Shown in pieces: positions 415-15,939 of a stretch of 64,000 bases of DNA. The stretch covers positions 1,612,001-1,676,000 of the forward strand of contig NZ_BSNK01000001.1 in the NCBI RefSeq assembly GCF_030159955.1, read 5' to 3'. Each line of letters opens with the position of its first letter. The stretch's first letter is position 1. This DNA comes from Algimonas ampicilliniresistens (GTDB lineage Bacteria; Pseudomonadota; Alphaproteobacteria; Caulobacterales; Maricaulaceae). Under the pieces are notes generated by a model. That model searched no databases, had not been told where the DNA came from, and was given only the letters and a program-made list of their open reading frames with translations. The position numbers and the translations under genes were made by a program.

Positions 415-1224
415 CTACCCTGCAGGGTCGGACATCGCTTCCATATTCGCGTCCGCTTGACGGATCGCTGCTTCCATGCGGTCTTCCGCGCTTTGCAGGT
501 TTTTTTTCGGATCCTGGTAGAAGGCCGTCAGCTTCATGATGTTAAGGAAGGTCTTGTTGAGCACCCGCCCACCTAGTTTCATCGGGCGATCGAAATCGAA
601 CAATAGGATCACGCGTTCTTCGTCGGTTTCGTTCCACACTTCATGCTCATACGTGTCGTCAAACACGAAAATTTCGCCTTCTTTCCACGCCGTGATCGTA
701 TCATCGACGCGAATGCGGCACTTCTCTCGGTCTTTTGGAATGATCAGGCCTAGATGGCTGCGTAAAATGCCCTTGGTCACGCCTTTATGGGCGGGAATAT
801 GATAGCCCGGCGCAAGGATTGAGAACATTGCGGTCTGAAGGTTGGGGACGCCTGATAAAATATCGGCCGTTTTTGGCGTCAGCTTCGTATTTGTCTCCAT
901 CCGTTGACCAAAACCGTAGAGAATGAAGGTCTTCCAATGCTTGGCTTTGGATAGTCGGTATTGGTCGGGCGAGAGTTCGTGAAACGCCGGAATATCGTCG
1001 CGGAAAGCAAGCACGGCTTGCGCTTCCTCGCGGATCACTTCCCAATTATCGGTGAAAGCTTTCAGCCACGGAAAATGCGAATTGTCGATCTTTGGCGTGT
1101 CTGGAACCTTGGATTGCGACGACTGGAACCCAGCAATTTTGCGGACCAGCTTCTTCCCCGTCTTCTTGATGAAGGCGCGGCGCGTTTTTTTTAGGTGTTC
1201 GGGTTTTTCGACAGGATCGGTCAT
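415..1224 (-). CDS. Aspartyl/asparaginyl beta-hydroxylase family dioxygenase (LpxO/OlsC-like)
   Basis: A 269-residue protein of the Fe(II)/2-oxoglutarate-dependent Asp/Asn beta-hydroxylase family. Candidate metal and cosubstrate ligands are HIPAH at 142-146, the R-S-H at 155-157, H194 within FDDTYEHE and R204, just ahead of FDFDRP. A basic N-terminal stretch (residues 8-30) could sit at the membrane. In bacteria this family includes LpxO and OlsC, which 2-hydroxylate acyl chains of lipid A or ornithine lipids. Given its neighbours I infer a lipid acyl-chain hydroxylase. The frame runs further upstream into cfa, but the ATG at 1224 lies 11 nt after the cfa stop and fits the family length. It is the last gene of the minus-strand lipid operon. 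Confidence 0.75.
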   Translation of the reverse strand: MTDPVEKPEHLKKTRRAFIKKTGKKLVRKIAGFQSSQSKVPDTPKIDNSHFPWLKAFTDNWEVIREEAQAVLAFRDDIPAFHELSPDQYRLSKAKHWKTFILYGFGQRMETNTKLTPKTADILSGVPNLQTAMFSILAPGYHIPAHKGVTKGILRSHLGLIIPKDREKCRIRVDDTITAWKEGEIFVFDDTYEHEVWNETDEERVILLFDFDRPMKLGGRVLNKTFLNIMKLTAFYQDPKKNLQSAEDRMEAAIRQADANMEAMSDPAG

Positions 1225-1235
1225 GGCGCCGCCAC

Positions 1236-2444
1236 TTAGGACAGCAGGCCCGGCCCGTCCATCATGTAGTTCCGTGTCGGCGGCAGCGCATGCACATCTT
1301 TGGTGAGCTGAATTTGGAAGTTCATATGCTTGCCATAAAGGAACGAGAATTCTGAAATGACCAAGTAAAACTCCCACATTCGCGCGAAACGCTCATCTTT
1401 CATCGCTACGACGGCGTCGCGATTAGCCTGAAACCGCTTCTCCCATTCTGCTAATGTCCACGCATAGTGCAGCCGCAGAATTTCCATATCCGTGACCCAC
1501 AGACCGGCCTTTTCAATCTCAGCATAAGTTTCAGACAAAGCGGGGCTATAGCCGCCGGGGAAGATGTATTTGCGGATCCACTTACCCGTCGTTCCGGGAC
1601 CGCCTTTACGTCCGATTGAATGGACAAGCGCACAACCATCATCCGTCAGCACATCGCGAATTTGACCGAAAAATTCTGCATAATGCCCGACTCCGACATG
1701 TTCGAACATACCGACCGAGACAACACGATCATAAGGTCCCTTGCAATCGCGGTAATCCTGCAACCGGATCTCGACCCGGTCTTGAAGTCCCGCAGCTTCG
1801 ACACGTTCTCGCGCTAAGGCATACTGATCATTGGACAGAGTGACCCCGACCACCTGAACATCGTGTTCTTTAGCGAGGTGCATCGCCATACCACCCCAGC
1901 CGCAACCAATATCAAGAACACGATGTCCGTGCTCTAACCTCAACTTGGCGGCAATATGGCGTTTTTTGGCAAGCTGGGCCTGTTCCAACGTCATGCCGTA
2001 TTCGGGCCAGTACGCGCAGCTATATTGCATGTCTTCATCAAGGAAGAGCCGATAAAGATCGTTGGAGAGATCGTAATGGGCTTCGACATTCTTCGACGAC
2101 GCCTCACGCTTATTCCGCTGCATCGTCCGACGGAACGTTTTCTGCACCCGCTTTATCCGTTGTCGAACTGGGCCTTTGCGCAACCCATCTCGATTGTGTG
2201 CAAACACCTCTAAAAAGCCACGAATGCCGCCGTCTTCGACGATCAATGTACCGTCCATATAGGCTTCGCCAGCATAGAGTTCAGGATTCAGAAACAAGCG
2301 ACGATAGAGTTTTGGATCAGTCAACCGAACGGTCGCCGACGGCTCACCACCCGGTCCGTAATCGTGGCGGGCGCCTTTATGATCAATAATGGTCAGCCGC
2401 CCGGTTGTCACGAAACGGCGCATCATTGCGTCTAACAGTCTCAT
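1236..2444 (-). CDS. cfa: Cyclopropane-fatty-acyl-phospholipid synthase
   Basis: A 402-residue SAM-dependent enzyme that methylenates the cis double bond of membrane lipid acyl chains. The N-terminal lipid-binding domain covers roughly residues 1-115. The family hallmark EAHYDLSNDLY lies at 121-131, YSCAYW at 141-146 and the SAM-binding VLDIGCGWGG at 176-185. The length is normal for the family. It lies between the glycerophosphotransferase-like gene (54 nt upstream) and the beta-hydroxylase (11 nt downstream), all on the same strand. Cfa-type enzymes can act on phospholipids generally, so the link to sphingolipids rests on position only. Confidence 0.93.
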   Translation of the reverse strand: MRLLDAMMRRFVTTGRLTIIDHKGARHDYGPGGEPSATVRLTDPKLYRRLFLNPELYAGEAYMDGTLIVEDGGIRGFLEVFAHNRDGLRKGPVRQRIKRVQKTFRRTMQRNKREASSKNVEAHYDLSNDLYRLFLDEDMQYSCAYWPEYGMTLEQAQLAKKRHIAAKLRLEHGHRVLDIGCGWGGMAMHLAKEHDVQVVGVTLSNDQYALARERVEAAGLQDRVEIRLQDYRDCKGPYDRVVSVGMFEHVGVGHYAEFFGQIRDVLTDDGCALVHSIGRKGGPGTTGKWIRKYIFPGGYSPALSETYAEIEKAGLWVTDMEILRLHYAWTLAEWEKRFQANRDAVVAMKDERFARMWEFYLVISEFSFLYGKHMNFQIQLTKDVHALPPTRNYMMDGPGLLS

Positions 2445-2498
2445 GTGAATAGCCTACTGCCCTTAGAGCAGAGGTCCAAATCACAAAATTGAGTGCCT

Positions 2499-3722
2499 CT
2501 ATTCAGCCGCCATGAGCTCAGGCTCCAATGCAGCCTCGCGTCGGAGCCACTCGACGATCGCATCAGCCGCCTTTTCAGATGACCGACCTGTTTCGAGATC
2601 AAATGTGTCAGCAAAAGCTAAGTTTTGGGCCGGTAGATAGTCGGGATGTGTATGCTCGGCCGCGCGAACGGTTTCTATCAATCGGCTGGTATCGTCCAAA
2701 ACGGGCCCTGTGGTCCAATTTAGATAGAGCGGATTGCCTCTCCACTCTGCCTCATGGCTGTTGAGGAAAATCGTCGGACGCCGTTCATGCAAAAACTCAT
2801 AAATCTGCGACGACACGTCCCCAATGTAGATATCGGCAGCGCGCGTGTAGGTCATGTCGACACTGCGCGGGCTACCAAGGTCGACATGGATGTTAGGCAG
2901 ATCTAGGAATCGTTTAGGCAGCTGTTTGCGGCGGCGCACGCGTTTATATTCGACCGATGTGTGGATCTTGCGCTGAAAGATCATGATATGGGGCGCAAAA
3001 ATCAAATTGATATCAGGGGTTTCTGCGAACGCATCCAGTACGTCCTCACCCATTATGTACCAGCTCGATAAATGCGGGTCGAAATGTGGGTTATACAGAA
3101 CCACCGGATTATCATTGTCGAACAGTTTCGGCACGCCATCATGCGGCACAAAGTCGAATTTAGGATAACCAGCCACAGCATACTCGCCATCGCGAACCAG
3201 CCCGTGTTCTTTGTGTCTTTTCTCGTCCTTTTCACCCGCCACTAAGACGAAATCAAAATCTCGAATCGACGTTTTTTGCGCGACCGCACGATCTCCAGCA
3301 CCGTGATGCGTCAAAACGAACTTCAAATGATCCAAGCCGAACTGCTTCTTCAGAAGAAGGCTGGTGCTTTCTGGAACCACGAACACGTCGAATTGAGCCA
3401 GCGTGTCGAGGTTTTCCTGAAGAACGGAGAGACGACGCGCCGGAGCCACAGCATTGGCGGCGCGACGAATGCCACGATCCGCCTTTGTCGTATCCAATTC
3501 AACAAACTGTGCCTCTCGACACAGGTCTGGCCCCAACCCGGACAGAACGAGAGCTTTCTGCTCCTGTGTTGAGGTTAGGACGGTGACATCAACATCCGGA
3601 TGTCGGACGAGTATCTCGCGAAGGATAGGCGCCGTGTGGGGCACTTGATGCGGAACTTCATGATTATAGAGAAACGCAACCTTGAGCGGCGATCCGTCAA
3701 ATTTTTCGAGTAGCTGAGACAT
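2499..3722 (-). CDS. CDP-glycerol:poly(glycerophosphate) glycerophosphotransferase-like protein
   Basis: A 407-residue protein with a GT-B-like two-domain layout. Recognisable segments are THHGAGDR in the first half, LYNPHFD and FAPHI in the middle, and DIYIGDVSSQIYEFL near residue 310, which matches the sugar- or glycerol-phosphate transferase motif of the TagB/TagF family. That family moves phosphoglycerol from CDP-glycerol to an acceptor lipid or polymer. It has no signal peptide or membrane segment. In this locus it may transfer a phosphoglycerol-type head group or modify an envelope glycan; the acceptor is unknown. It sits 71 nt after the HAD gene and ahead of cfa. Confidence 0.6.
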   Translation of the reverse strand: MSQLLEKFDGSPLKVAFLYNHEVPHQVPHTAPILREILVRHPDVDVTVLTSTQEQKALVLSGLGPDLCREAQFVELDTTKADRGIRRAANAVAPARRLSVLQENLDTLAQFDVFVVPESTSLLLKKQFGLDHLKFVLTHHGAGDRAVAQKTSIRDFDFVLVAGEKDEKRHKEHGLVRDGEYAVAGYPKFDFVPHDGVPKLFDNDNPVVLYNPHFDPHLSSWYIMGEDVLDAFAETPDINLIFAPHIMIFQRKIHTSVEYKRVRRRKQLPKRFLDLPNIHVDLGSPRSVDMTYTRAADIYIGDVSSQIYEFLHERRPTIFLNSHEAEWRGNPLYLNWTTGPVLDDTSRLIETVRAAEHTHPDYLPAQNLAFADTFDLETGRSSEKAADAIVEWLRREAALEPELMAAE

Positions 3723-3793
3723 AAGGCGCGGGACTTAGAACAAGCCGCGAACGGCTAACACTCACAACCTGTTTCATTTCTTTCACATTTTCG

Positions 3794-4477
3794 TCACTCA
3801 GCCACAGGAATAAATCCGCTTTCCTGCTCTGACCAAGTCTGAATGGGCAGGTTCAAAGCTTCTGCATCCGTGCGTGTTTTGGGTTTTGGGTCAACAACAA
3901 TGGTTCGGTCCATGATCGGCAAGAGAGCAAAATCCGCACGACTATCCGTGTAAAAAACCATGGGTCCCGAAAGTCCTTTTTCCGAAAGATAGGCCTCAAC
4001 AGCCTGGCGTTTGGCCTCGCCGTAACAATTCTCGCTCGCGAAGTGGTCTTCCAAACGGTCCCCGTCCCAAGCCATCTCTGTGCAAACGAACCCGTCGACA
4101 TCCAGACGTTTTGCAATTGGCTCAACAACCAAATCGACCGCCGCTGAAGCGATCAACACATGATCGCCCCGGGCTTTATGATACGCCAGCGCTGCTCGCC
4201 CGCCGGGCCGCAAGCCGTCCCGAACCTCTGAGTCTGCAAAGGCGTCAGCCATCGCGACCAATTCAGATCGCGATCGGCGCATCAGGCTCCACCGCATCAT
4301 GGACCGTTTGACCGCTCCGCGAGGTCGACGGCCTGCCTTATATTCAATCTGGTCGCGGATCGTTTCGTAGAGAAGCGGGATCCAGAACCACGGCCGGGTC
4401 CTGACCGTTCGCCAGACGAACCGGCCCCATGTCCCACGCTGCGTCAGCGTATAATCAAGGTCAAAAATGGCAATCAT
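3794..4477 (-). CDS. HAD superfamily phosphatase (subclass IB, phosphoserine phosphatase-like)
   Basis: A 227-residue HAD hydrolase. The DxD nucleophile motif is IFDLDYTLT, with D6 and D8 as the predicted nucleophile and acid/base. A helical cap follows at about 20-95, the second motif is IASAAVD, and the last is FYTDSRADFALL with the metal-binding aspartates. HAD-IB enzymes remove phosphate from small phosphomonoesters such as phosphoserine or phosphoglycerol. The start overlaps the flippase stop by 4 nt (ATGA), so the two are translationally coupled. I infer a dephosphorylation step in head-group synthesis; the substrate cannot be read from the sequence. Confidence 0.75.
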   Translation of the reverse strand: MIAIFDLDYTLTQRGTWGRFVWRTVRTRPWFWIPLLYETIRDQIEYKAGRRPRGAVKRSMMRWSLMRRSRSELVAMADAFADSEVRDGLRPGGRAALAYHKARGDHVLIASAAVDLVVEPIAKRLDVDGFVCTEMAWDGDRLEDHFASENCYGEAKRQAVEAYLSEKGLSGPMVFYTDSRADFALLPIMDRTIVVDPKPKTRTDAEALNLPIQTWSEQESGFIPVAE

Positions 4478-5841
4478 TCGCAGGGCGCACGGTTCAATTT
4501 TGAAAGGGTGCGCGTGACCAGCAGCACAACAGCAATCAGGGCTACACTATAGCCGAAGAGCCAGGCCCAGCCTGTGCCGATCTCTCCCAGCCAGTTCGTC
4601 AGGACGATAAAACTGACAACGTAGGCAATAATTCCGGCGGCACGCGCATAGATGGCGCGTTCCGGCTTTCCGACTGCGTAAAAGACGGGATAGAGCGGGG
4701 CAACTGCCGCAAATACCGCTGCACCTAATACGAGCAGCACGGCCAAATTGACGGCCCCAGCATAGTCCGGCCCAAGAACGGAATCGACCGCGATCGGACC
4801 TAACCAATAAACAAGCGCTGCAATTGCCAAGCCTGCGCCCAGTGCCACGGCACTGGCTTTACTCACTAAACGTAGAATTTGCCCCCCCTGCCCCGCCGCG
4901 ACAATGCGCGCCAATTCCGGATAGATAACTTGGTCCAGCAGTTTGACGCCCTCTGAGAGAAGGCGGGCGATCTCTTCGGCAATTTTATAAACAGCAACGA
5001 AGACGGGGCCGAAAACCCCCATGACCAAGAGCACAGGAAGGTGTGAGAAGCCCGCCGCCAATGAGCTGTCCACATAGGCTTTGGAGGCGAAAACCCAGAG
5101 CCCTCTGCGAGGATGCATGAGATTGATTTTTGCGTTCAAAGCTGGCTTTAATAGGCCGCGTTTCGCCAATTCGGACAGACCTAAAGCGATGATCACCAAG
5201 TAGCGGGCCAATGCACCGAGATACCAAGCCGCGATAAAGCCGATCATGCCCCATCCCTGATAAGCCACGACTAGCACACCGATGAGACGGACGGCTGGCA
5301 TCACCAGCCAAGCAACGGCCAGACCTCGAAATCGGTCAAACAGTCGCAAAACGCCCGTACTCATGCCGATTTGTTGGAACAGAACGACCGTACAATAGAC
5401 GGCAACGAGACCAAAGAGTTTGGTGAGGTCAATCTGATCATAACCGGGCCAGAAATCTGGGAAGGCTTGCACAACCCCGACGAAAGCCCCGAACAAGGCA
5501 ATAGACCCGATATAGGCTAGCACTACAGAGACCGCATCGAGCGTCGCGGCAAATTTCACCAGACGCGCGAAAGACGCCCCATCTTTTGCTTCAACATCAT
5601 CAGACCCGAAACGAATCACGGCCTGCCATGGCTGGAACGTCATCATTTCGGCAAAGAACAGCATGTAAGCGTGTAAAAAAATCACGATGCCGAACTCAGC
5701 CTGACTATCGAGAGCCCGCGCGGTGACGACAAGGCTGATCAGCCCAAGCAAGGCGCCAATGGCTTTCGCCCCGAATAGGAGCGATGCATTGGAAGCGATC
5801 CGCGACCCGACGGTTCGCGTGCAATGGATCGACATGTCCAT
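4474..5841 (-). CDS. MOP-superfamily flippase (polysaccharide/lipid exporter, YghQ/Wzx-like)
   Basis: A 455-residue integral membrane protein with about 12-14 hydrophobic segments spread across its length and short charged loops, as in the polysaccharide-transport branch of the MATE/MOP superfamily. There is a LLFGAKAIGALLGL segment near the N-terminus. Such proteins flip lipid-linked intermediates across the inner membrane. The start overlaps the nucleotidyltransferase stop by one base, and the stop overlaps the HAD gene. From memory, E. coli carries a related pair, yghQ (flippase) and yghO (GNAT), as neighbours. The cargo could be the decorated sphingolipid or a glycan intermediate. Confidence 0.75.
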   Translation of the reverse strand: MDMSIHCTRTVGSRIASNASLLFGAKAIGALLGLISLVVTARALDSQAEFGIVIFLHAYMLFFAEMMTFQPWQAVIRFGSDDVEAKDGASFARLVKFAATLDAVSVVLAYIGSIALFGAFVGVVQAFPDFWPGYDQIDLTKLFGLVAVYCTVVLFQQIGMSTGVLRLFDRFRGLAVAWLVMPAVRLIGVLVVAYQGWGMIGFIAAWYLGALARYLVIIALGLSELAKRGLLKPALNAKINLMHPRRGLWVFASKAYVDSSLAAGFSHLPVLLVMGVFGPVFVAVYKIAEEIARLLSEGVKLLDQVIYPELARIVAAGQGGQILRLVSKASAVALGAGLAIAALVYWLGPIAVDSVLGPDYAGAVNLAVLLVLGAAVFAAVAPLYPVFYAVGKPERAIYARAAGIIAYVVSFIVLTNWLGEIGTGWAWLFGYSVALIAVVLLVTRTLSKLNRAPCE

Positions 5842-6581
5842 TATTTGCGCGCCGCAATGATGTCTTCGACAAGCGCCAAATCAGCAGGTTTATCGACGTC
5901 GATTGCCGCTTCGGCAAACGGCAATAGTACCGGTTCAGCTGTGATCTGAAGCTTCTTAGAGACTGCGGCAAATGCCCCCGCAAGGCTCAGTCTTCCAGAC
6001 GCATATTTGATACCTAAACCTAGGCCGACCGTTTTCGCCAGTTTCAACGGGTCTTTGCGGAAATCCTGCGCCGTCTGCCAGAACCGGATCGCCTCAAGCG
6101 CGCGGTCATTGGCCAGATAGAACAGATTGCATCCACTCACCGCTTGATCCGCAAACCGCAAGTAAGTCCGTTTTGTGGCTGGATAGGCAGATTGAATAAC
6201 GGCCTCCGTCGCCAATCCGACAGTAAAGTCTGCACCGGAGGCTTGTGAGTATTGGATAAAGGTATCGACCATTTCGCTCGTCAGCAAAGCATGATCACAG
6301 GTCGTCAGCAGAGCCGGAAACGCCCCGCCTGACGCCGCCATTAATGCACTATCCGCTGGCCCTCGCCCTCCCGGCACTAAGTCAAAACCGTCTCGCTCCT
6401 TGGGGTATCCTGACAAGAAAAAGGGCTCAGCCACTTTCGCGCCACGTAAAGCCTGGGCGACACGCTCAACCATCGCCATGCCGCCAACGGGAATGTCAGC
6501 CTTGAACACGACTCCTGCATGCTCGCATAGCGCATCCGGACCAGGGCGCTGTCCCGCCAGAATGATTGCGCGAACGCTCAA
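5841..6581 (-). CDS. MobA-like nucleotidyltransferase (GT-A fold)
   Basis: A 246-residue protein starting MSVRAIILAGQRPGP, the LAGxR nucleotide-binding signature of MobA-like NTP transferases. VFKADIPVGG follows at about 26-35, with the conserved lysine that contacts the phosphates, and TTCDHALLT near residue 95, a metal-binding aspartate motif. The molybdopterin guanylyltransferase function is unlikely in this context. A CTP-dependent activation of a phospho-alcohol, feeding the glycerophosphotransferase-like gene downstream, is my inference. It overlaps the GNAT gene by 4 nt upstream and the flippase by 1 nt downstream. Confidence 0.7.
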   Translation of the reverse strand: MSVRAIILAGQRPGPDALCEHAGVVFKADIPVGGMAMVERVAQALRGAKVAEPFFLSGYPKERDGFDLVPGGRGPADSALMAASGGAFPALLTTCDHALLTSEMVDTFIQYSQASGADFTVGLATEAVIQSAYPATKRTYLRFADQAVSGCNLFYLANDRALEAIRFWQTAQDFRKDPLKLAKTVGLGLGIKYASGRLSLAGAFAAVSKKLQITAEPVLLPFAEAAIDVDKPADLALVEDIIAARK

Positions 6582-7717
6582 AGCTCAGCCTCGACCATGC
6601 GGTATGTCTTATAAAGGTCCGCCCCGACCAGTTCGCAGATCGCGCTCATGCTGCGATTGCCTTCTAGGATCCAAGACAGCTCACACTGCGTAAACCCTTG
6701 TGCTTGACCCGCATCGAATGCGTCTGAACAAATTTTGGTTGTCAGAGCCACGCCCCGGCGACCTTTGTGGAATTTCCGCTTTAGACCCATCAAGGGCACG
6801 CGGCCTTTGCTGACTTTTTTAGCCTTGATCCGGTAGAGAAGCTTGGCCCATCCGAAGGGTAAAAGACGACCATCGAGCCCTTTGACGACCTCATTCAAAT
6901 CCGGAATCATCCAAATGAATGTGGCCGGTTCGCCATCGATGAAGCCGATCTGAAACCCAGTCTTGAACATGATGGGCCTCATTTCTTTGGCCATATGTTC
7001 GAATTGCTCTTCAGAGAACGGTATGAAGCCCCAATTTTCTGACCAAGCATCGTTGAAAATCTCTCGGGCCATTCGAACATCGCCGAGGAAATCTTTCGTG
7101 TTCATCGTTCGCCACGTCAGCCCCGGATCGGACTCAGCCTTAGCTCGCAGCCCTTCAACCAACTTGCCCTTGGGGGCACCGTCGTTGAGATCAGCGTTGT
7201 AGGCATAGAGATCGACAGCTTTAGAGAAACCATTGCGCTCGATAGCCTCCAACTGATGCGGATGTCCGTAAGGCATCATAACCGCTGGCGGATGATCAAA
7301 CCCATCAACCAGCAATCCCACTTCCTCATTCACGCTCCACATTGCTGGACCAATGAGCTGTGTCCGTCCCTGCGCACGTGCCCAGTCTTTCGCTGCCTTC
7401 AACAAAGCATCGGCTAAGGGCGCAGAACTCTCGCAATCGAAATAACCGAAAAACGCCGAATCTGTGCCGTGAAGCCCATCATGCGCCGCATTTAGAAAAG
7501 CTGCGATTCGCCCGATCGCGCGACCGTTTCGTCTCGCGATGAAGAACCGAGTCGTCAGAGCGCGAGAAGCCGGGTTTTTGTGGCTCAGTTGCGCTTTACG
7601 TTCCATACGCAATGGCGCGCGCCAATGAGGCTCACCTTTGTAAAGAGCATAAGGGAGCGCGACGAAGTCAGCATCCGCCTGATCAGATTCGCTTATTATG
7701 AATGACGCATCCGTCAT
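6578..7717 (-). CDS. YghO-type GNAT acyltransferase, candidate bacterial ceramide synthase (bCerS)
   Basis: A 379-residue protein of the YghO-like branch of the GNAT superfamily. The N-terminal domain has the family pattern of an aromatic/basic start, HWRAPLRMERKAQL, then the core strand AIGRIAAFLNAAHD and FFGYFDCE at about 65-100. It continues with IGPAMWSVNEEVGLLVDGFD and a MMPYGHPHQLEAIERNGF stretch, and a second acyltransferase-like half follows. In Caulobacter, as I recall, the bacterial ceramide synthase that N-acylates the sphingoid base is a GNAT-family protein encoded in the same locus as spt. This gene is the best candidate here. It leads a tightly overlapping four-gene unit and lies 48 nt downstream of the DUF2141 gene. 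Confidence 0.7.
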   Translation of the reverse strand: MTDASFIISESDQADADFVALPYALYKGEPHWRAPLRMERKAQLSHKNPASRALTTRFFIARRNGRAIGRIAAFLNAAHDGLHGTDSAFFGYFDCESSAPLADALLKAAKDWARAQGRTQLIGPAMWSVNEEVGLLVDGFDHPPAVMMPYGHPHQLEAIERNGFSKAVDLYAYNADLNDGAPKGKLVEGLRAKAESDPGLTWRTMNTKDFLGDVRMAREIFNDAWSENWGFIPFSEEQFEHMAKEMRPIMFKTGFQIGFIDGEPATFIWMIPDLNEVVKGLDGRLLPFGWAKLLYRIKAKKVSKGRVPLMGLKRKFHKGRRGVALTTKICSDAFDAGQAQGFTQCELSWILEGNRSMSAICELVGADLYKTYRMVEAEL

Positions 7718-7765
7718 ACGAGCCCACTTGGTGTCATCAGTAAAGGGGCGCTTTGGCGACCGAAC

Positions 7766-8335
7766 CTAGCCTAGGTCAACCAGATTGATGACAATGTCGC
7801 GGCCATCACTCGGAACCTCGAAACGCGTTTCTTCCCATTTCGGAAGACGTAGCGACTTTATTTCGGGGTTATTCGACAGGCCGTAGGGCTCTTTGGGTGT
7901 GAAATTCCATTTCTTGTCGAACTTCCGATCCCCATCAATGTCGTGATAACCGACGACGGCATACTCACCTGGGCCAGGTACATGGAAGCAGACCCGCATT
8001 GGGCCATCATCTGCAGGAACACGAATGCGACGGAGTTTACCGGATCGCTTCATGAAGTTCTGCTCACCAAATAGCTCGAGTTTCAGGATGCCTTCTTTGC
8101 TGACATTGTTCACAGTCACCCGAATCTGATGATAGCCCAAGATACAGCGATCTGCGGCGTCACGGTCATAAAGCTCTAACCCACGCTCGATTCCGAGCGC
8201 TGATAGAGGTTCAGGCACATCATCATCATCGGCAGCAGCAGCTGTAGCGGCGAGGCTAAAAGCGCCCACACCAATCAGTGAAACACCGCGGATGAATTTC
8301 CAGTAGGGTCTGTTCGTACGATTTGCGTTGATCAT
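7766..8335 (-). CDS. DUF2141 family secreted protein
   Basis: A 189-residue protein with an N-terminal signal: basic residues, then a hydrophobic segment at about 18-33 and an Ala-rich cleavage region (TAAAA). The mature part is beta-rich, with FHVPGPGEYAVVGYHDIDGD at about 120-139 and KFDKKWNF, the typical DUF2141 core in which 'H-D-n-n-k' precedes a small loop. DUF2141 proteins are periplasmic or surface proteins of unknown function. I recall them beside sphingolipid genes in other alphaproteobacteria. It is the first gene of the minus-strand run and is divergent from the permease genes, with a 66-nt shared promoter region. Confidence 0.8.
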   Translation of the reverse strand: MINANRTNRPYWKFIRGVSLIGVGAFSLAATAAAADDDDVPEPLSALGIERGLELYDRDAADRCILGYHQIRVTVNNVSKEGILKLELFGEQNFMKRSGKLRRIRVPADDGPMRVCFHVPGPGEYAVVGYHDIDGDRKFDKKWNFTPKEPYGLSNNPEIKSLRLPKWEETRFEVPSDGRDIVINLVDLG

Positions 8336-8401: not shown

Positions 8402-9667
8402 ATGGGGCAGTTCGGTCATTATCAAAATGTGGATCGCAGGAATCGTTTGGGTCGTCTAAACACATATCTTTTCAAAAAAGCGTCGATTGCGATCGGCGGT
8501 CTTGTGGTGTTCGCCTGTTGCGTCCTCCTGCTTGAACGTTTGCTGCGTATTTTCGAAGTTGTCACGACATCGACAAAACCGGCGTCTGATGCCTCTAACA
8601 TGATCGTGTCACTGTTGCCCTATTATCTGGGCATTGCAGTTCCAATGGCGTTAATGCTGGGTACGATTATTACAGTTGATCGGTTTTCACGCTCATCTGA
8701 ACTGACGGCCGCACTCGGGGCGGGCGTTTCTTTAACCCATATGACTCGGCCTTTTCTCGCGATTGCTACGATTCTAGCAGTCGGATCGATCTTGATTGAA
8801 GGCTGGCTGCAACCCCTCGGACGCTATCAATACCGAACTGTAGAAAACACCGTCAAACAGACCAGCTTCACTGCGGCGTTGCGCGAAGGCACATTTACGA
8901 CAGTTGGATCCCGGACATTTTTCGGTGGAACAGATAAACCTGATGCCGGGATTGGACCGATTTTCATCTATGAAGCGGTCTCTGAAAACGGCCAGCAGAC
9001 CGGCTTTCGCCTGACGACCGCCAAAGAAGGCGAACTCATCGTCCGCGAAGAGACCGGCGCCCCCGTACTGCAATTGGGTTCGGGCCGCGCTTACCAGATT
9101 CTGGACAATAACCGCCTGTCTGGCGATCTCGGTTTTGGCGGATCATCCATTGCGGGCGCAGCGACGGTCGTTCCATTCCGGGCCCGGGGCAATGATGAGC
9201 GAGAGCTGACATCGTCAGAACTGTTCAAAAATCGAAAGGGCGACCTACGGACAGAGATCGACCGAAATACGAATAATGCCGCGTTACATCTTCGAATTGC
9301 GCGAACGGCCCTTCTGTTCATTCTACCTTTTATCGCCGTACCCTTCGGTTTGAATTACGGTCGCAATCCTTCCTCGGCAGGAATTTTTGTCGGCGTTGTC
9401 TTCCTCGTCTCCCTGCAAAAAGGTTTGGAATTCGCGCAATCGCTCGGCGCGGCTGGTAAGATTCCCCCTTGGCTTGGCATTTGGGGGTTAATCGCAGCTC
9501 TTACGATCTTTGCTGCGATTATCTTCCGCAAGAGCGCGTTCAAGATGGGGCAGCCACCCCTCACATCGTTCGCGCAATGGGTCAGTCACATGCAGGGGCG
9601 GATACGCTCGATTCTCAAACAAGTTCGAGACCGTCTGCGCGGCACGATGGAGGGGCGTCGTGTTTAA
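8402..9667 (+). CDS. LptF/LptG (YjgP/YjgQ) family permease, first of a pair
   Basis: A 421-residue protein of the LptF/LptG permease family. It has hydrophobic segments near residues 25-50, 65-85 and 105-125, a long periplasmic beta-jellyroll region at about 140-290, and three C-terminal membrane segments that include FILPFIAVPFGLNYGRNPSS. The canonical pair forms the inner-membrane part of the LPS exporter and is normally next to lptD/surA; here it is followed by a lipid kinase. A TTG at 8447 preceded by AGGAA is an alternative start that would remove a 15-residue non-membrane leader. Transcription starts in the short divergent gap upstream. See the findings for its proposed role in sphingolipid transport. 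Confidence 0.85.
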   Translation: MGQFGHYQNVDRRNRLGRLNTYLFKKASIAIGGLVVFACCVLLLERLLRIFEVVTTSTKPASDASNMIVSLLPYYLGIAVPMALMLGTIITVDRFSRSSELTAALGAGVSLTHMTRPFLAIATILAVGSILIEGWLQPLGRYQYRTVENTVKQTSFTAALREGTFTTVGSRTFFGGTDKPDAGIGPIFIYEAVSENGQQTGFRLTTAKEGELIVREETGAPVLQLGSGRAYQILDNNRLSGDLGFGGSSIAGAATVVPFRARGNDERELTSSELFKNRKGDLRTEIDRNTNNAALHLRIARTALLFILPFIAVPFGLNYGRNPSSAGIFVGVVFLVSLQKGLEFAQSLGAAGKIPPWLGIWGLIAALTIFAAIIFRKSAFKMGQPPLTSFAQWVSHMQGRIRSILKQVRDRLRGTMEGRRV

Positions 9668-10739
9668 GTTTTCCCTCTACCTCTCCAAATCCTTTTTGTT
9701 CACTTGGCTCACCGTTGTCTTTGGCTTTCTCGTTCTGATCGGGCTGCTGGATAGTCTGGCCAATGGCGCCGACATTGTTGCGAGCGGTGAAGGGTTCAAA
9801 GGTACGTTCAAATATATGGCGCTCCGCGCGCCTGTTATCTTCGACCGGATATTCGTGTTCACTCTCGTGGTTGCGATCTTGCTGACCTATGTGAAATTAA
9901 TCCGCCAGCATGAGCTAGTGGCCCTGCTTGGGTTTGGGATTAGCGCAACTCGTCAGGTTCTTCTGCTCGTGCCGGTCGTATTCGGCGCGGCACTGCTGTC
10001 CATCACTTTCATCGACTACACAGTGGCCCCCGCCGTTCGCGCGCTACAAGCTTGGGGAATCGGTGAGTATAAGATCAAGAACATCACGCCCGACAATCCA
10101 TTATGGCTGGAAGACAATGGCGCGATCGTGCGCGCGATTGACCGGGAATCTTACGAGACACTCGCAAAGATCGAAATTTTCCAACGCAATGAGCTGGGTG
10201 AAGTTGACTCGATTATTTGGGCTGACCGAGCGACCTATACAGGTGAAGGATGGATGCTTGATGGGGTCCGTCGCTTGGACGTTAAAGGCGCAGACGGCGA
10301 ACCTCGCGAATCTAACACCGTAGATGGGGCTGCTGTTTGGACGACGTCACAAACACCCAAATCAATCGCCCGCCTTGCCGCTGAACCGCGCGACCTGTCC
10401 TTGTCTGAAATGCGGGACTTTATGAAGCCCGGCAATAGTGGGGCAAAACCGTCCTTTGCCTATGGGTTTTGGCACGCCCATCGCCTCACCCGACCCTTAG
10501 CGGCGTTGATTCTTTTGATTGCTTGCGCAGCACTGATGCAACGAACCGGACGGGAAGATACGGGCGACCGGACACTTATTTTAGGTATCACACTCGGCTT
10601 TGTCTTTTTGATTATCGACGGTGCCATGGCGACCTTCGCGGCTTCGGGTGGCATCGCCGTCACGCCTGCTATTGCTATGCCTTTATTAGCCTTTGGTCTG
10701 CTTTCAGCGTTTCTGCTGACCCGGACTGAGGCGCTATAG
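9660..10739 (+). CDS. LptF/LptG (YjgP/YjgQ) family permease, second of a pair
   Basis: A 359-residue permease. I place the start at the GTG at 9660, preceded by a GGAGG-type site and overlapping the stop of the first permease by 8 nt. The frame open further upstream would run through the previous gene. It has membrane segments at about 15-35, 55-75 and 95-125, a periplasmic domain at about 130-265, and three more at the C-terminus, the usual LptG topology. LptF and LptG work as a heterodimer with an LptB ATPase and LptC; neither lptB nor lptC is in this window. It is followed 7 nt later by the lipid kinase, so the two permeases and the kinase are probably one transcript. Confidence 0.85.
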   Translation: MFKFSLYLSKSFLFTWLTVVFGFLVLIGLLDSLANGADIVASGEGFKGTFKYMALRAPVIFDRIFVFTLVVAILLTYVKLIRQHELVALLGFGISATRQVLLLVPVVFGAALLSITFIDYTVAPAVRALQAWGIGEYKIKNITPDNPLWLEDNGAIVRAIDRESYETLAKIEIFQRNELGEVDSIIWADRATYTGEGWMLDGVRRLDVKGADGEPRESNTVDGAAVWTTSQTPKSIARLAAEPRDLSLSEMRDFMKPGNSGAKPSFAYGFWHAHRLTRPLAALILLIACAALMQRTGREDTGDRTLILGITLGFVFLIIDGAMATFAASGGIAVTPAIAMPLLAFGLLSAFLLTRTEAL

Positions 10740-10746
10740 CCCGCGC

Positions 10747-11652
10747 ATGACTGCGTCGCTCTTTATCAATCCATACTCGGAACGCGTCGGTAAAAAAGGC
10801 TCCCGCCTCGCAACCCATGCCAGCGAGCATGATGCCCGCGTGTTCGACCTTGCCCTGTTCGAGGCTCTGCCAAGTCAGGTCGAGGCCGCGCTGGAAACCT
10901 CCGATCTAATCGTTATCGAAGGCGGTGACGGAACTGTTCAATGCGTCATGAGTGAAGTCATGCGGCAAGTTGGCGACAAGCACGACATTCCCGACTTCGC
11001 GATCGCCTCGGGCGGTATGACCAATCAAATTGCTAAGATCATTGGCATGAAACGCGTTGGTCGATCCGGCTTAAAGACCTTGCATAAGGACCCAAAGGCG
11101 CTTCAGACCCGCCTTATGCGTCTGTCCTGTGACGGCACACCTGATCAGTTTGGCTTCCTATTCTCGACGGGTGCCCTGCCTATGGTCACAGATTATACGA
11201 AAAACGAGCTGCACACGCGCGGCATCGGCGGATCGGCCGCTGTGGTTGGCGGCTTGGTCAAAGCCGTGACTGCAGAACGGGACAGTGTCATGCCCGCCAC
11301 GGACTGTGTGCTCCGGATTAATGGCGAAACACTGGCCGGCCCGCATCTCGGGACCGTTGCCACCACCCTGCCTTCCATCACTATGGGTCTTGATCCATTT
11401 TGGGGCGATGAAGAAGGTGATCTACGTCTGACCTATGTCGATGGCAGTTGCACGAAGCTCTACCGACACATCGCGGAGATTTGGGTCGGCTTTAAGGATA
11501 AGGATCGAAGACCGGACGGGTTTCATAGCTGGAACACAAGTGAAGCTGAATTCGAATATTCCGGACCCGTCATGATGGACGGCGAGCCCATTAATGTACC
11601 GGGCAACGTCTTCCGTTTAAGCGCCAGCCGACCGATTACCATTCGTCGATGA
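10747..11652 (+). CDS. cpgB: DAGK-type lipid kinase, probable ceramide kinase (CpgB-like)
   Basis: A 301-residue protein with the diacylglycerol kinase catalytic signature: LFINPYS at the start, IEGGDGTVQ at 57-65 (GGDGT phosphate-binding loop) and SGGMTNQIAK at 88-97, the substitute for the usual 'GTaNdfA'. A C-terminal beta-rich domain ends in VMMDGEPI. The family phosphorylates lipid hydroxyls with ATP. Caulobacter makes ceramide phosphoglycerate through a ceramide kinase called CpgB encoded beside spt; location and length support the same role here. Diacylglycerol kinase remains possible. It overlaps the following nucleotidyltransferase by 4 nt. Confidence 0.75.
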   Translation: MTASLFINPYSERVGKKGSRLATHASEHDARVFDLALFEALPSQVEAALETSDLIVIEGGDGTVQCVMSEVMRQVGDKHDIPDFAIASGGMTNQIAKIIGMKRVGRSGLKTLHKDPKALQTRLMRLSCDGTPDQFGFLFSTGALPMVTDYTKNELHTRGIGGSAAVVGGLVKAVTAERDSVMPATDCVLRINGETLAGPHLGTVATTLPSITMGLDPFWGDEEGDLRLTYVDGSCTKLYRHIAEIWVGFKDKDRRPDGFHSWNTSEAEFEYSGPVMMDGEPINVPGNVFRLSASRPITIRR

Positions 11653-12581
11653 GCGGAGCGGATCAGGACGCGCTTCTGGATCTGATCCAGTCTGAACAGC
11701 TAGACCCGCCCGCACGCGTTCAAGCCGTCATGAACGCGATCAGGGACCGACATCCCGACCGCGTCCTCGGCTTTGTCTATTATGGATCCAGCCTGCGCGA
11801 TCTAGATGATCCAGAGAAGATGTTAGATTTCTACGTGCTGGTCGATAGCTACCGTGCAACCCACGGCACGGGACTTTCAGGCGGGTGGCGATCCCTGACT
11901 AACCGCCTCATCCCGCCCGCCGTCTATTATCTAGAACTGAACCAAGAAAACGTTCTATCTACTTGCAAATACTCAATTATTACATTGCGTGAGTTTGAAC
12001 GACGCTGTGCGGACAGCTTTCTCAGCCAAGTTTGGGGGCGCTTCGCTCAGCCTTGCGCTCTGCTCGGCACATCGGACGCGACGATCGAAGCGCGGATCGT
12101 ACAGGCCCGCGCCAATGCTGTCTGCAAGCTCGCGAGTGAGACGGCGCCTTTGTTTGAGGAACCCGCCTCAGCTGAAGAATTTTGGGGCCGCGCTTTTTAT
12201 GAAAGCTACCGCACTGAATTGCGCCCAGAAAGCGACGATGGACGCGCCCGGGAAATCGTGGCTCGCTATCGTGATCGCTATGACGCGGTCAGCCAGACTC
12301 TATTTGGCCGTTCCACTGATGGGCGCTTTAATGTTCAAAATTATCCCGGAGCTGGATCATCGTTGCGCTGGTTTCTGCGCCGCCTCGTCGGCAGACCCGT
12401 AGCAGCCATCCGTATCCTGAACAGCGCCGCCACATTTGATGGCGGGCTGGATTATGTCTTGCGTAAAGTTGAGCGGCATTCCGGTGTGTCATTGGAAGTG
12501 ACTGAGGCACAGCGGAAACATCCGGTCCTGTGGTCACCTGTGCTGGGATGGAAATTATGGCGCCGCGGGGCGTTCGGCTAG
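11649..12581 (+). CDS. Tam41/Mmp37-like nucleotidyltransferase, candidate lipid-phosphate cytidylyltransferase
   Basis: A 310-residue protein coupled (ATGA) to the lipid kinase. Residues 44-50 (YYGSSLR) and 58-66 (MLDFYVLVD) form a nucleotidyltransferase-fold signature of Gly-Ser, then an acidic strand. An Asn-Arg-containing stretch and an aromatic YYLEL strand follow. The arrangement resembles mitochondrial Tam41, the CDP-diacylglycerol synthase ('YGSG...DFifaV'). A CTP:ceramide-phosphate cytidylyltransferase acting after the kinase is my inference. There is no signal peptide or clear membrane segment. It ends 3 nt before the stop of the convergent spt gene. Confidence 0.6.
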   Translation: MSGADQDALLDLIQSEQLDPPARVQAVMNAIRDRHPDRVLGFVYYGSSLRDLDDPEKMLDFYVLVDSYRATHGTGLSGGWRSLTNRLIPPAVYYLELNQENVLSTCKYSIITLREFERRCADSFLSQVWGRFAQPCALLGTSDATIEARIVQARANAVCKLASETAPLFEEPASAEEFWGRAFYESYRTELRPESDDGRAREIVARYRDRYDAVSQTLFGRSTDGRFNVQNYPGAGSSLRWFLRRLVGRPVAAIRILNSAATFDGGLDYVLRKVERHSGVSLEVTEAQRKHPVLWSPVLGWKLWRRGAFG

Positions 12582-12584
12582 ATT

Positions 12585-13853
12585 TTATCCACCCGCTATT
12601 TTGCGCATCATTTCATTCAAAATCTCACCACTCTGATCTTTCAGAGCACGGAACCGAGACAAAATGGCGTTCACATCCTCTTCCGTGTGAGCGGCCGAGA
12701 CGGAAATGCGCAGAAGACTGGAGCTTTGCGGCGTTCCCGGCGGAACAGCGAGATTGACATAAACGCCTTCTTTAAGAAGCCAATTCCACTCCATCGCGGC
12801 CTGCGCTTCATTGGGTCGACGGATCGCGATGACCGGACTGGCCGGTGCAGCAAGATCAAACCCCATTCGGTTCAACCCATCATGCAGTTGCGCTGCGCGC
12901 GCCATGATGTTGGTCCGCAATTCTGGGCGGGACTTGATCGCGTCGAGTGCCGCTTGGGCCGCGCAAATGTTGGACGGGGCCGCTGACGCCGTGAACATAT
13001 AAGGCCGCATAACTTTGCGAAGCAGTTCGAACTCTGGGTGCCGAGAGGCGCAGAAACCACCGACGGACGCTAAGCTTTTGGAAAATGTACCGGAGTAGAA
13101 ATCAATCTGATCCAGCACGCCCTGCTCTTCCGCGATCCCAGCGCCCGTTGCGCCAAAGACACCATAACTATGGGCTTCGTCGACATAGAGGTATGCGCCA
13201 TGACGATGGGCGACTTCGACAAATTCATCGATCGGCGCGATGTCGCCAAACATAGAATAGAGGCCTTCAATGACGACCAGCGCGTGACCGCCCTCTGGAA
13301 TGGCCTGACGGGCCAAGCGCTTGTCGAGATCGGCCGGATTATTATGGCGGAAGCGAACCGTTGTTGTCCCAGCCAAACGGGTGCCGTCAATGATACAAGC
13401 ATGCGCATCCGCATCGATGAATATGACATCGTTTGGACCAGCGAGCCCGGCCATCGCTGCCAAGTTAGTTACATATCCAGTCGTGAAAACGATGCAGGAC
13501 GGCTTGCCAAGATGTTCAGCCAAGTCTCGCTCCAGCTGCTCATGTTCGACATAAGTGCCGTTAGCGATACGTGATCCCGTTGTGCCCGTTCCGTGCCGAT
13601 CAATCGCGTCCTTTGCGGCCTGGCGCGCCGCTTCATCATAGGTGAGACCTAAATAGTTATTCGTGCCAGCGAGGATGATTTCACGATTTCCAATGCGCCC
13701 GCGTGTCGGGCCCATAATATCGTCAAATGTCATATTGAACGGGTCGACCCCGATCCTGTTGACCACATCGACACGCTGCTTGAGCGGATCATATTTGCTA
13801 AAAATCGACAGGCCAGGTGTTCCCCCAGCATCCGCTCCGCCAGTACCGCTCAT
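12585..13853 (-). CDS. spt: Serine palmitoyltransferase
   Basis: A 422-residue PLP enzyme of the alpha-oxoamine synthase family, which condenses serine with an acyl thioester to give 3-ketosphinganine. The glycine-rich GTGTTGSR is at 88-95, the ring-stacking H151 in DADAHACIID, DEAHSYGVFG at 225-234 with the cofactor aspartate and histidine, and the PLP lysine K259 in SGTFSKSL. AONS, KBL and ALAS are relatives. The choice of Spt rests on the adjacent ACP and acyl-AMP ligase, the arrangement known in Caulobacter and Sphingomonas, and on the neighbouring lipid kinase. The start overlaps the ACP stop by 4 nt. Confidence 0.88.
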   Translation of the reverse strand: MSGTGGADAGGTPGLSIFSKYDPLKQRVDVVNRIGVDPFNMTFDDIMGPTRGRIGNREIILAGTNNYLGLTYDEAARQAAKDAIDRHGTGTTGSRIANGTYVEHEQLERDLAEHLGKPSCIVFTTGYVTNLAAMAGLAGPNDVIFIDADAHACIIDGTRLAGTTTVRFRHNNPADLDKRLARQAIPEGGHALVVIEGLYSMFGDIAPIDEFVEVAHRHGAYLYVDEAHSYGVFGATGAGIAEEQGVLDQIDFYSGTFSKSLASVGGFCASRHPEFELLRKVMRPYMFTASAAPSNICAAQAALDAIKSRPELRTNIMARAAQLHDGLNRMGFDLAAPASPVIAIRRPNEAQAAMEWNWLLKEGVYVNLAVPPGTPQSSSLLRISVSAAHTEEDVNAILSRFRALKDQSGEILNEMMRKIAGG

Positions 13854-14095
13854 TGTTGCAACAATTCCTGAATAGCGAGGACCAGTTCGCCGACCGTTTT
13901 TACGTCACTGATGACTTCCATTGGCACTGAGATATCATAGTGATCCTCGAGTTCCATGATCAGATCGAAAACGGCTGTCGAGTCGACTTCGAGATCAGAC
14001 ATGATGCCCGATGTGCGCAAGATGGGTTTATTTTTGACGTTATACGGCTTGAGCAGCTCGCATATCTTGTCGAAAATTTGCTGGTCTTTAGGCAT
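13850..14095 (-). CDS. Acyl carrier protein of the sphingolipid locus
   Basis: An 81-residue acyl carrier protein. The phosphopantetheine site is Ser39 in LEVDSTAVFDLIMELED, a DST variant of the usual DSL, followed by the acidic helix II. It is divergent from the housekeeping AcpP type (DSLD), which suggests a dedicated carrier. It should receive a fatty acyl group from the acyl-AMP ligase upstream and hand it to Spt. It is coupled to spt (ATGA overlap) and lies about 100 nt downstream of the ligase. Confidence 0.88.
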   Translation of the reverse strand: MPKDQQIFDKICELLKPYNVKNKPILRTSGIMSDLEVDSTAVFDLIMELEDHYDISVPMEVISDVKTVGELVLAIQELLQQ

Positions 14096-14196
14096 GAGGC
14101 CCCTTTCAACGATCGTCGCGCCGTTACCAAGCCGATTGCCGGGCGTCCAGCTATCGGATCAGCCTCTTAAAAGAAAGAGAGCGGCGGGAGCCTGCT

Positions 14197-15939
14197 CTAA
14201 GCCTGCACAGCCCGAAGCTGTGTCGCTGCCTGCAGGTCGATGATCCCACCATCCAGATATTTCTGCTTCACCCGCGCCCGCGAAAGCTTGCCGGATGAAG
14301 TGATAATCATTGTCGATTTCGGCACCAGCATCAGCTGAACAGGCACACCCACTTCCAAGCGAATGGCCGCGGAAACCGCTGTTTCAATTTCTGTCAGAAG
14401 CCTAGGGTCCCGGGTCCGGCATTCCAGCAGGAGCATAATGGTTTTCTGATCGCCCGCACCACCGACGGAGAAGGCGCAAGCGCGGCCACAGCGATGCGGC
14501 GCGGCGGCCTGTGCTGCCCATTCAATGTCTTGCGGCCAAATATTGCGACCATGATAAAGGATGAGATCCTTATAGCGTCCCGTCACGATCAACTGGCCGT
14601 CATGCCAATAACCGAGATCGCCCGTATCGAGCCAGCCATCCTTGGAAAAGGCGGCTTCTGTCGCTTGGCTATTGCGGAAATAGCCCGGTGAAAGCGATGG
14701 CCCCTTTAGACAGATGCGGCCGACATGGTCCTCGCCCAGAACTTTATTGTCAGCGTCGCGAATTTCGACTTCGTGGTCTGGCAACCTCACACCGCAAGCG
14801 ACAAAAGTGCGCGTATCTTCTGCGGGCGTCAGATCTGTGGCCGTCACAGCCGTTGAGGTCATTTCATAACGGCGCATATCGATTGTGTGTTTAAGCAGAC
14901 CCTGGCCGCGCGGCGCGAAGGTCGCGGCCAGCGTCGTTTCCGCCATGCCGTAAGACGGCGTAAACGCACTTTCTTCAAAGCCCATTGGGCCAAACAGTTC
15001 GGAAAATTCGGTCAGAGGTTCTGGCCGCACCATATCACCGCCAATGCCGGCCGCGCGCCAAGATGACAAATCAAGTTCGCGATCTCCGCGCCAACGCCGC
15101 ACACAGAGCTCGTAGCCAAAGGTCGGTGAATAGGACAGCGTCCCCTTATTGTCGGAAATGAGCTGCAACCACGTCATTGGGCGGCGGGTAAAGTCGGTCG
15201 GGTCCATGAAGTCGACTGAGAGTTGCGCCATCATCGGTGCAATCATGCAGCCGATCAGACCCATATCATGATAAAGCGGCAACCAAGATGTTGCGCGATC
15301 GGTTTCGTTGACCTGAAGGCCATATTTCGTGATGCCGTGACAGTTGGCCGACACGGATGACTGCGTGCCGAGAATGCCCTTTGGCGACGATGTGGACCCA
15401 GACGAATACTGGATGTAGCAAAGATCGTCAGCACCAAACGGCCGCAAATCATCACCGGCAGGCAAAGCATTGACGTCATCAAATGTGAGCACGGGTGTGG
15501 CCGTGTCATTGAGCGCGGAGCTCATGATCGGTTCCATGGACGCAGGTGCGAACAGAGCGAAAAAGTCGCCTGTGTCCGCCATACGTTCCAACTGACGTTC
15601 ATAAGACGACCGGCCGCCAAGCGTCACAGGCAGTGGCAGCGGAGCAGGAACCAGGCCCGCATATTGGCAAGCAAAGAATAAAATGGCGAAATCAGGCGTC
15701 GAAACAGCCGCCAAACCGATGCGAGAATCCTTCGGGGCAAAACCGACAAGACGCTTTGCCATGTCAATCGACTGCGTTCGAAGATCCGCATAACTCAGAC
15801 TAGTGACAAGACGGCCCTTACCGTCAAAGTAATTGAACCCCGTATCCCCCGTCGCGGCATAGTCCAACGCCTCTGTCAGAGTCGGGAAATCGCCGTGGCG
15901 TAGTGGGATATTGCGAGCGGTAGGCGTCGGCTCGGTCAT
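14197..15939 (-). CDS. Fatty acyl-AMP ligase / acyl-ACP synthetase of the sphingolipid locus
   Basis: A 580-residue adenylate-forming enzyme. The P-loop YSSGSTSSPKG is at 178-188, WLPLYHDMGLIG follows, then YGMAETT, the FAAL/ACSL motif, and GWLDTGDLGYWHDGQLIVTGRYKDLI near residue 455, the A8 hinge. The short 'PLYHDMG' region and the insertion before the C-terminal domain look more like fatty acyl-AMP ligases than acyl-CoA synthetases. It would activate a fatty acid and load it on the adjacent ACP for Spt. It is first in the acyl-ligase/acp/spt unit, with its promoter in the 300-nt gap upstream. Confidence 0.88.
   Translation of the reverse strand: MTEPTPTARNIPLRHGDFPTLTEALDYAATGDTGFNYFDGKGRLVTSLSYADLRTQSIDMAKRLVGFAPKDSRIGLAAVSTPDFAILFFACQYAGLVPAPLPLPVTLGGRSSYERQLERMADTGDFFALFAPASMEPIMSSALNDTATPVLTFDDVNALPAGDDLRPFGADDLCYIQYSSGSTSSPKGILGTQSSVSANCHGITKYGLQVNETDRATSWLPLYHDMGLIGCMIAPMMAQLSVDFMDPTDFTRRPMTWLQLISDNKGTLSYSPTFGYELCVRRWRGDRELDLSSWRAAGIGGDMVRPEPLTEFSELFGPMGFEESAFTPSYGMAETTLAATFAPRGQGLLKHTIDMRRYEMTSTAVTATDLTPAEDTRTFVACGVRLPDHEVEIRDADNKVLGEDHVGRICLKGPSLSPGYFRNSQATEAAFSKDGWLDTGDLGYWHDGQLIVTGRYKDLILYHGRNIWPQDIEWAAQAAAPHRCGRACAFSVGGAGDQKTIMLLLECRTRDPRLLTEIETAVSAAIRLEVGVPVQLMLVPKSTMIITSSGKLSRARVKQKYLDGGIIDLQAATQLRAVQA

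Follow-up and report, generated by a model that had tools for sequence, protein, structure and literature searches.

A probable head-group exchange in the Caulobacter-type locus for making and exporting phosphosphingolipids in Algimonas ampicilliniresistens

The stretch of DNA analyzed here (the window) comprises 64,000 nucleotides of Algimonas ampicilliniresistens (contig NZ_BSNK01000001.1, positions 1,612,001 to 1,676,000) and carries, at positions 415..15939, fifteen genes that an earlier note, made from the sequence alone, had read as one sphingolipid pathway running from base through ceramide and its phosphate to an activated head group and transport. Our analysis indicates that the locus is probably of the Caulobacter type, making and exporting phosphosphingolipids, with a head-group module that has undergone exchange. 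A more far-reaching version, to which we give somewhat less than an even chance, is that the sphingolipid head group is switched like an O-antigen: a transferase cassette and a dedicated flippase would be exchanged as a block within a fixed ceramide-phosphate/export operon, and in the window species a TagF-like transferase of the wall-teichoic-acid type would build a phosphodiester head group undescribed on bacterial sphingolipids, possibly on an unreduced 3-oxo-ceramide (the latter because the ceramide reductase gene cerR is gone).

The one-pathway idea itself is well supported by co-occurrence with spt (serine palmitoyltransferase), but is largely published for Caulobacter. According to the excerpted text of PMC11324152 (the other papers are likewise cited from excerpts), 17 genes, CC_1168-CC_1152, make up the Caulobacter phosphosphingolipid region: CC_1165-1162 and CC_1154 serve ceramide synthesis, CC_1161-1158, CC_1153 and CC_1152 serve decoration, LptC2/F2/G2 plus a flippase are proposed for transport, and CC_1167 and CC_1157 are labeled probably unrelated. 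With this region, for which gene roles and a similar purpose are taken from that source, the window locus shares spt with a dedicated acyl carrier protein (ACP) and acyl-AMP ligase, CerS, the adjoining CpgB and CpgC (the latter of the Tam41 fold), a CC_1153-type nucleotidyltransferase (NTase), a putative flippase, and a second LptF/LptG pair (LptF2, LptG2). It differs in having no cerR, cpgA, cpgD or CC_1158-type metallophosphatase at the locus, in placing the flippase in another operon, and in adding to that operon a HAD-IB phosphatase, an OlsC-type hydroxylase and a cyclopropane fatty acid synthase (cfa).

The 19 genomes of the window's genus (Algimonas and kin) share, wherever contigs reach, a recurring scaffold, aasR-acp-spt / cpgC-cpgB-lptG2-lptF2 / duf2141-cerS-NTase-flippase ... 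cfa-hydroxylase, although G019, G029 and G104 lack cfa, G210 matches it only partially, and cerR is present at four loci only. The variable slot lies between NTase and cfa/hydroxylase. Type I cassettes (flippase-CpgA-HAD-CpgD) are found in 11 genomes, in eight as one stretch and in three on broken contigs; type II (flippase-HAD-Glyphos_transf) in five, namely the window genome G000, G164, G204, G019 and G114; and type III (flippase-HAD-ATP-grasp-second NTase) in G104 and G024. The cassette of G202 is cut off by a contig end. The NTase and the CpgB/CpgC core are common to all three types. Searches (at E 1e-100 for cpgD) placed cpgA and cpgD in the same 11 genomes and in none of the other 8; in the window genome no cpgA match was obtained, and the best cpgD match was 28 bits over 73 residues. 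The slot that holds CpgA/CpgD in sister genomes thus holds in the window a TagF-like transferase of an unrelated Pfam family, with no second NTase. An identification of this glycerophosphotransferase-like gene as CpgA was rejected, CpgA being a CDP-alcohol transferase (CDP, cytidine diphosphate). The head-group set that the earlier note placed in the pathway keeps that place, refined to an exchangeable cassette with a transferase other than CpgA. In 10 of the 11 type I genomes flippase and CpgA occupy a single open frame of 764-857 residues (e.g. L098:2485-4989, with the CDP-alcohol domain at 641-805 of 834), and in the eleventh the frame ends at 393. In the sister genus, cfa directly follows HAD (L081-L083, L087).

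The history of these genes was followed in midpoint-rooted trees of 21 taxa (20 each for HAD and olsC+cfa): 16 genomes out of the 19 in the genus, four of the sister genus and one from a further genus, with three broken loci left out. The trees of the nine-gene upstream core, of cerS, of cpgC, of the NTase and of olsC+cfa all join the window, G164 and G204 (type II) with G104 and G024 (type III) at ultrafast bootstrap (UFBoot) values of 97-100, whereas the flippase tree unites the five type II taxa at 99. In the HAD tree types II and III come together at 98, and support for the five type II taxa as a group is only 59. In the approximately unbiased (AU) test, the flippase rejects the grouping given by the core (p 0.0009, log-likelihood difference 64), and the type II clade is rejected by the core (p 1.5e-5), cerS (3.7e-38) and olsC+cfa (3.3e-6), and weakly by the NTase (p 0.028). 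Identity between the window and type III G104 runs as follows: spt 88%, cpgC 83%, cpgB 87%, lptG2 89%, lptF2 85%, duf2141 75%, cerS 72%, NTase 61%, flippase 47%, HAD 49% and olsC 88%, against 72-89% throughout the same genes for type II G164. Because the flippase and flank trees are opposed and the identity trough falls on NTase-flippase-HAD, we read this as a replacement of the flippase and head-group genes within a conserved operon. O-antigen and capsule loci likewise have constant flanks, an exchangeable middle and a co-inherited flippase; here the variable product would be a sphingolipid head group. In the open-licence literature of PMC we did not find the cassette exchange, a TagF-like transferase as a sphingolipid enzyme, or the missing reductase; searches there for such a gene arrangement brought up the Caulobacter studies alone.

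As the flippase is inherited with the head-group genes and fused to CpgA in type I, we argue that it would recognize the finished head group. The window genome, in which no cpgA, cpgD or cerR was found, probably makes a head group other than the ceramide diphosphoglycerate (CPG2) of Caulobacter. The opposite view is that of a plain ceramide phosphoglycerate (CPG)/CPG2 locus, with the TagF-like enzyme doing CpgA's job on CDP-glycerate from the resident NTase. Such an arrangement would suit the presence of the NTase and the CpgB/CpgC core in every cassette type, the CDP-glycerate chemistry shown for CpgD (a phosphoglycerate cytidylyltransferase), and the use of CDP-alcohols by TagF-like enzymes (TagF transfers phosphoglycerol from CDP-glycerol to its acceptor) (PMC12275187). 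However, neither cpgD nor cpgA was found in the window genome, the NTase coexists with CpgD in relatives and so need not make CDP-glycerate, and an unchanged head group would not lead one to expect the change of flippase that accompanies the cassette. We regard this view as unlikely but not negligible. In the preferred reading of an exchanged module, the transferase, which has the PF04464 domain of the TagF/TarF teichoic acid glycerophosphotransferases but matches the TarF NCBIfam model at only 22.5 bits (cut-off 550), would be an enzyme unrelated to CpgA that occupies its slot and, by analogy, may form the same kind of bond that CpgA could.

The link to sphingolipids was assessed in an evenly sampled set of 201 genomes of the order (window genome included), 67 with Spt above cut-off and 134 without; the counts were read off tables by hand and, the genomes being related and not independent, are not p-values. 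At least four LptF/LptG matches were present in 64 of the 67 spt-positive genomes (exceptions G004, G035, G127) versus one, G005, among the 134 spt-negative genomes, of which G099 and G167 reach three. CpgC was found in 52/67 versus 0/134, with one 21-bit match in spt-negative G176 set aside. The glycerophosphotransferase occurs in 25 of the 201, all spt-positive (G135 and G162 by fragments only), and in none of the 134 spt-negative genomes. The earlier note had proposed to check whether the permease pair, the Tam41-like gene and the flippase operon co-occur with spt; the permease pair, CpgC and the transferase do track it. Kinase and flippase were counted at spt loci, where a hidden Markov model census (8-20 kb each, some ended by contig ends; Table 1) has the kinase at 38 and the flippase at 36 of the 67. 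In a class-wide sample of 385 genomes (Spt above cut-off in 48; transferase threshold E 1e-40), nine of the 11 transferase carriers were spt-positive.

These counts bear on a second alternative, namely that transferase, HAD, NTase and flippase serve a surface polymer of their own, teichoic-like or capsular, and are only neighbors of the sphingolipid genes. The families PF04464 and PF01943 are familiar chiefly from polymers of walls and capsules. Neighborhoods (up to 10 kb, many cut short) were compared for the best 80 of 393 relatives of the transferase, which come from Acetobacteraceae, sphingomonads, Kordiimonadales, Parvularculaceae, some gammaproteobacteria and Marinimicrobia-labeled bins, with four from the window's own clade. 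Among these 80, the transferase has NTase nearby in 51, flippase in 29, HAD in 24, cpgB in 21, cpgC in 18 and spt in only 4, and at many other loci of this set (e.g. several of Komagataeibacter) none of these partners was detected nearby. The traveling unit is therefore the transferase with the NTase, often with HAD and flippase, and may sit away from spt (e.g. L245). A bin labeled Klebsiella pneumoniae (L200) has an NTase-HAD-transferase set that is otherwise mostly alphaproteobacterial, and is perhaps mislabeled. The excerpts of PMC11324152 further call CC_1167, by position this same gene, probably unrelated. The position matching rests on gene order in L039-L050 (one genus, same order) and not on the C. 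crescentus sequence; all 12 loci have at the CC_1167 position a homolog of the window transferase, 37-42% identical (L045 by fragment only). On the other hand, the absence of the transferase from spt-negative genomes of the order, the nine spt-positive carriers of the class sample, and the cpgC and cpgB genes near 18 and 21 of the 80 relatives all run counter to a separate polymer, as does the reported cofitness of CC_1167 with spt of 0.57 (PMC11324152). A tenth class-level carrier, G542, has the transferase beside cpgB, cpgC, lptF2, lptG2, DUF2141, NTase and flippase. Its spt slot (L237:14137-15345, beside cpgC) is filled by a pyridoxal-phosphate (PLP) enzyme gene whose best NCBIfam match is bioF (340 bits, cut-off 426); a proposal that this is a diverged Spt was withdrawn, the Spt-profile score of 264 bits lying below those of two yardstick PLP-enzyme genes (301 and 285). 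Overall, we consider a separate polymer distinctly improbable.

In the ceramide part of the pathway, one enzyme is conspicuous by its absence. CerR is periplasmic, Spt and CerS being cytoplasmic (PMC11087976), and cerR lies at 58 of the 67 spt loci. The window genome (99.65% complete) yielded a best CerR match of 54 bits and 26% identity, not above the spt-negative background, and G024 and G029 likewise have no CerR homolog above that level. The gene is absent between aasR and acp in the window (13850-15939), and is lacking from 13 of the 17 genus loci in which that stretch is covered. This leaves two readings: reduction by an unrelated enzyme, or a lipid that keeps its 3-oxo group. The neighbors of aasR in relatives, a Glu/Leu-dehydrogenase-like and a CobT-like gene, were considered as a replacement and set aside, as they are also present where cerR is kept.

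Several observations weigh against an exchanged sphingolipid head-group module. HAD prefers the type II clade but does not reject the core history (AU p=0.085), and the NTase dips in identity too, so that the edge of the exchange is not sharp. The curated model leaves two class-level transferase carriers, G301 and G542, outside the spt-positive set, and G301 has none of the other locus genes within the 13 kb read. In type II G204 the 3.3 kb beside cpgC (L110:1-3300) has a beta-glucosidase-like gene instead of spt. In the Caulobacter-like genus the transferase sits beside cpgA, not in its place. The window flippase and its nearest homologs miss PF01943 (no match at E 1 for the window protein and none at E 0.1 for L094 and L096), a family matched by four of seven flippase homologs and, of the three shown, above cut-off by one (L042). 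No CDP-alcohol synthase was identified besides the NTase, nor any cerR homolog above background in the genome to account for ceramide reduction. The first of these points, together with an alignment of just 447 columns and the failure of the four sister-genus genomes to form one clade in the midpoint-rooted trees as printed, could be taken to mean that the discordance of the flippase is an artefact of tree building, caused by fast evolution or a paralog mix-up. Yet the likelihood difference is large with strong opposite signals from both flanks, the identity trough is confined to three genes, and no artefact accounts for cassettes made of different kinds of genes; we hold an artefact to be slightly less credible still than a separate polymer. 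The least probable of the alternatives is that LptF2/LptG2 are only spare lipopolysaccharide (LPS) permeases, as their shared Pfam family would allow, since the copy number separates spt-positive from spt-negative genomes almost completely.

Gene identities, co-occurrence, cassette variation and the separate history of the flippase are direct observations, from which we infer substrates, head-group structure and order of steps as follows. By homology with characterized enzymes, Spt with the acyl-AMP ligase and ACP would make the sphingoid base, CerS would N-acylate it, and CpgB, a ceramide kinase (PMC10331486), would phosphorylate the product, so formation of ceramide and ceramide-1-phosphate is likely. 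CpgC would probably yield CDP-ceramide, because Tam41 makes CDP-lipids; at 14% identity to this CDP-diacylglycerol synthase, its expected lipid substrate is ceramide-1-phosphate, and the similar guess of an NDP-activated ceramide (NDP, nucleoside diphosphate) appears in PMC11324152. The probable role of the MobA/CofC-like NTase is activation of a phospho-alcohol or phosphoglycerate, perhaps supplying the donor from which the TagF-like transferase is predicted to add a phospho-alcohol to the head group, replacing the CpgA/CpgD pair of relatives. The HAD enzyme would take off a phosphate and may do the job of the CC_1158 metallophosphatase, for which its gene is a candidate stand-in (H. neptunium is given as lacking CC_1158 in the excerpts of PMC11324152). 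The flippase, matched to the head group, would bring the lipid to the periplasmic leaflet, and LptF2/LptG2 with the shared Lpt machinery, perhaps aided by the secreted DUF2141 protein, would carry it to the outer membrane; hydroxylase and cyclopropane synthase would modify acyl chains. CPG2-type sphingolipids aid Caulobacter survival without LPS and are linked to polymyxin sensitivity (PMC12275187, PMC11324152). If head groups swap with a matching flippase, surface lipid identity could be changed in one recombination step, and the pairing of flippases with head groups would become accessible to genetics. In Caulobacter this pairing is an open point, transport being left unstudied according to the excerpts of PMC11324152. 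The CC_1167-type glycerophosphotransferase and the HAD-IB phosphatase are hereby nominated as sphingolipid enzymes, and the data point to sphingolipid synthesis in a lineage that lacks the known reductase.

Table 1. Genes of the sphingolipid locus in the window, with occurrence at the 67 spt loci of the order sample
Gene or product	Coordinates	Strand	Evidence	spt loci (of 67)
aasR-like fatty acyl-AMP ligase	14197..15939	-	NF006624, 685 bits, above cut-off	61
acpR-like acyl carrier protein	13850..14095	-	PF00550	64
spt, serine palmitoyltransferase	12585..13853	-	NF047599, 546.8 bits (cut-off 500)	
cpgC-like Tam41-fold nucleotidyltransferase, putative CDP-ceramide synthase	11649..12581	+		38
cpgB-like ceramide kinase	10747..11652	+	PF00781, 34 bits; GGDGT motif	38
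lptG2-type permease	9660..10739 (listed from 9510)	+	PF03739, 152 bits; copy number tracks spt	38
lptF2-type permease	8402..9667	+	PF03739, 186 bits; copy number tracks spt	38
Secreted DUF2141 protein	7766..8335	-	PF09912, 81 bits; signal-peptide-like N-terminus (by eye, hydropathy)	51
cerS-like GNAT-type N-acyltransferase	6578..7717	-	39% identity to the CC_1154-position gene of L039	61
MobA/CofC-like NTP transferase (CC_1153 position)	5841..6581	-	PF12804, 36 bits; in all three cassette types	35
Putative MOP-type lipid flippase	4474..5841	-	About 11 hydrophobic segments; some homologs match PF01943; tree follows cassette	36
HAD-IB phosphatase (cassette)	3794..4477	-	PF12710, 97 bits; TIGR01490 above cut-off; FDLDYT motif	22
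TagF-like head-group transferase (Glyphos_transf) of the type II cassette	2499..3722	-	PF04464, 33.4 bits (cut-off 22.1); 25/201 order genomes, all spt-positive	17
Cyclopropane fatty acid synthase (cfa)	1236..2444	-	PF02353, 325 bits; with olsC follows core history	10
OlsC/LpxO-type acyl hydroxylase	415..1224 (listed to 1377; shorter start likelier)	-	PF05118, 180 bits; NF052565, 233 bits, below its cut-off of 450	10

All 15 open reading frames lie where the earlier note had them, in the three gene groups it described, except that two starts are over-extended (the likely starts being 1224 for the hydroxylase and 9660 for lptG2). The groups are an aasR-acp-spt operon and a long operon from DUF2141 to the hydroxylase on the minus strand, and an lptF2-lptG2-cpgB-cpgC operon on the plus strand. 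Neighbors overlap by 1-8 bases at HAD/flippase, flippase/NTase, NTase/CerS, lptF2/lptG2 (with the shorter start), cpgB/cpgC and acp/spt, as in tight operons. The cyclopropane synthase and the acyl hydroxylase belong to the locus as proposed, but were found only in the window's genus and nearby genera. When the sequences of solved structures were searched, no useful match came up for the flippase, the transferase or CpgC (best E 0.3), and the NTase matched an uncharacterized protein (2dpw). Family scans assigned no family to the cpgC-like gene and no curated one to the membrane protein read as the flippase. The cerS-like protein had no match in Pfam or NCBIfam scans; the cerS-like gene of G104 (L102:13114-14266) is split over two reading frames, either broken or misread. 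No LptC was found by Pfam among the 15 genes, no dedicated LptC search having been made, and the one CC_1168 position examined, in L042, holds a glycosyl hydrolase and not LptC2.

DUF2141 was rejected as a genome-level marker of spt, since it is present in 149 of the 201 order genomes and hence in no fewer than 82 that lack spt; what is informative is solely its position at the locus. The gene is found at 51 of the 67 spt loci although CC_1157, apparently at the same position, is called probably unrelated in the excerpts of PMC11324152; that position holds DUF2141 in six loci (L039, L040, L043, L047, L048, L050) and a HIT-domain gene in L042. The structure model of the window protein is weak (predicted local distance difference test score 69.7) and the PDB gave no match at E 0.001 or better, so that a role as carrier cannot be claimed.

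The window cpgB (10747-11652) is just 40-46% identical to that of five genus relatives (G019, G114, G094, G209, G207), and the adjoining lptG2 70-74%, so cpgB would seem to evolve quickly or to have a history of its own. Outside the locus, the window has a two-piece (permuted) tmRNA gene at 32730-33083, an arrangement usual in alphaproteobacteria.

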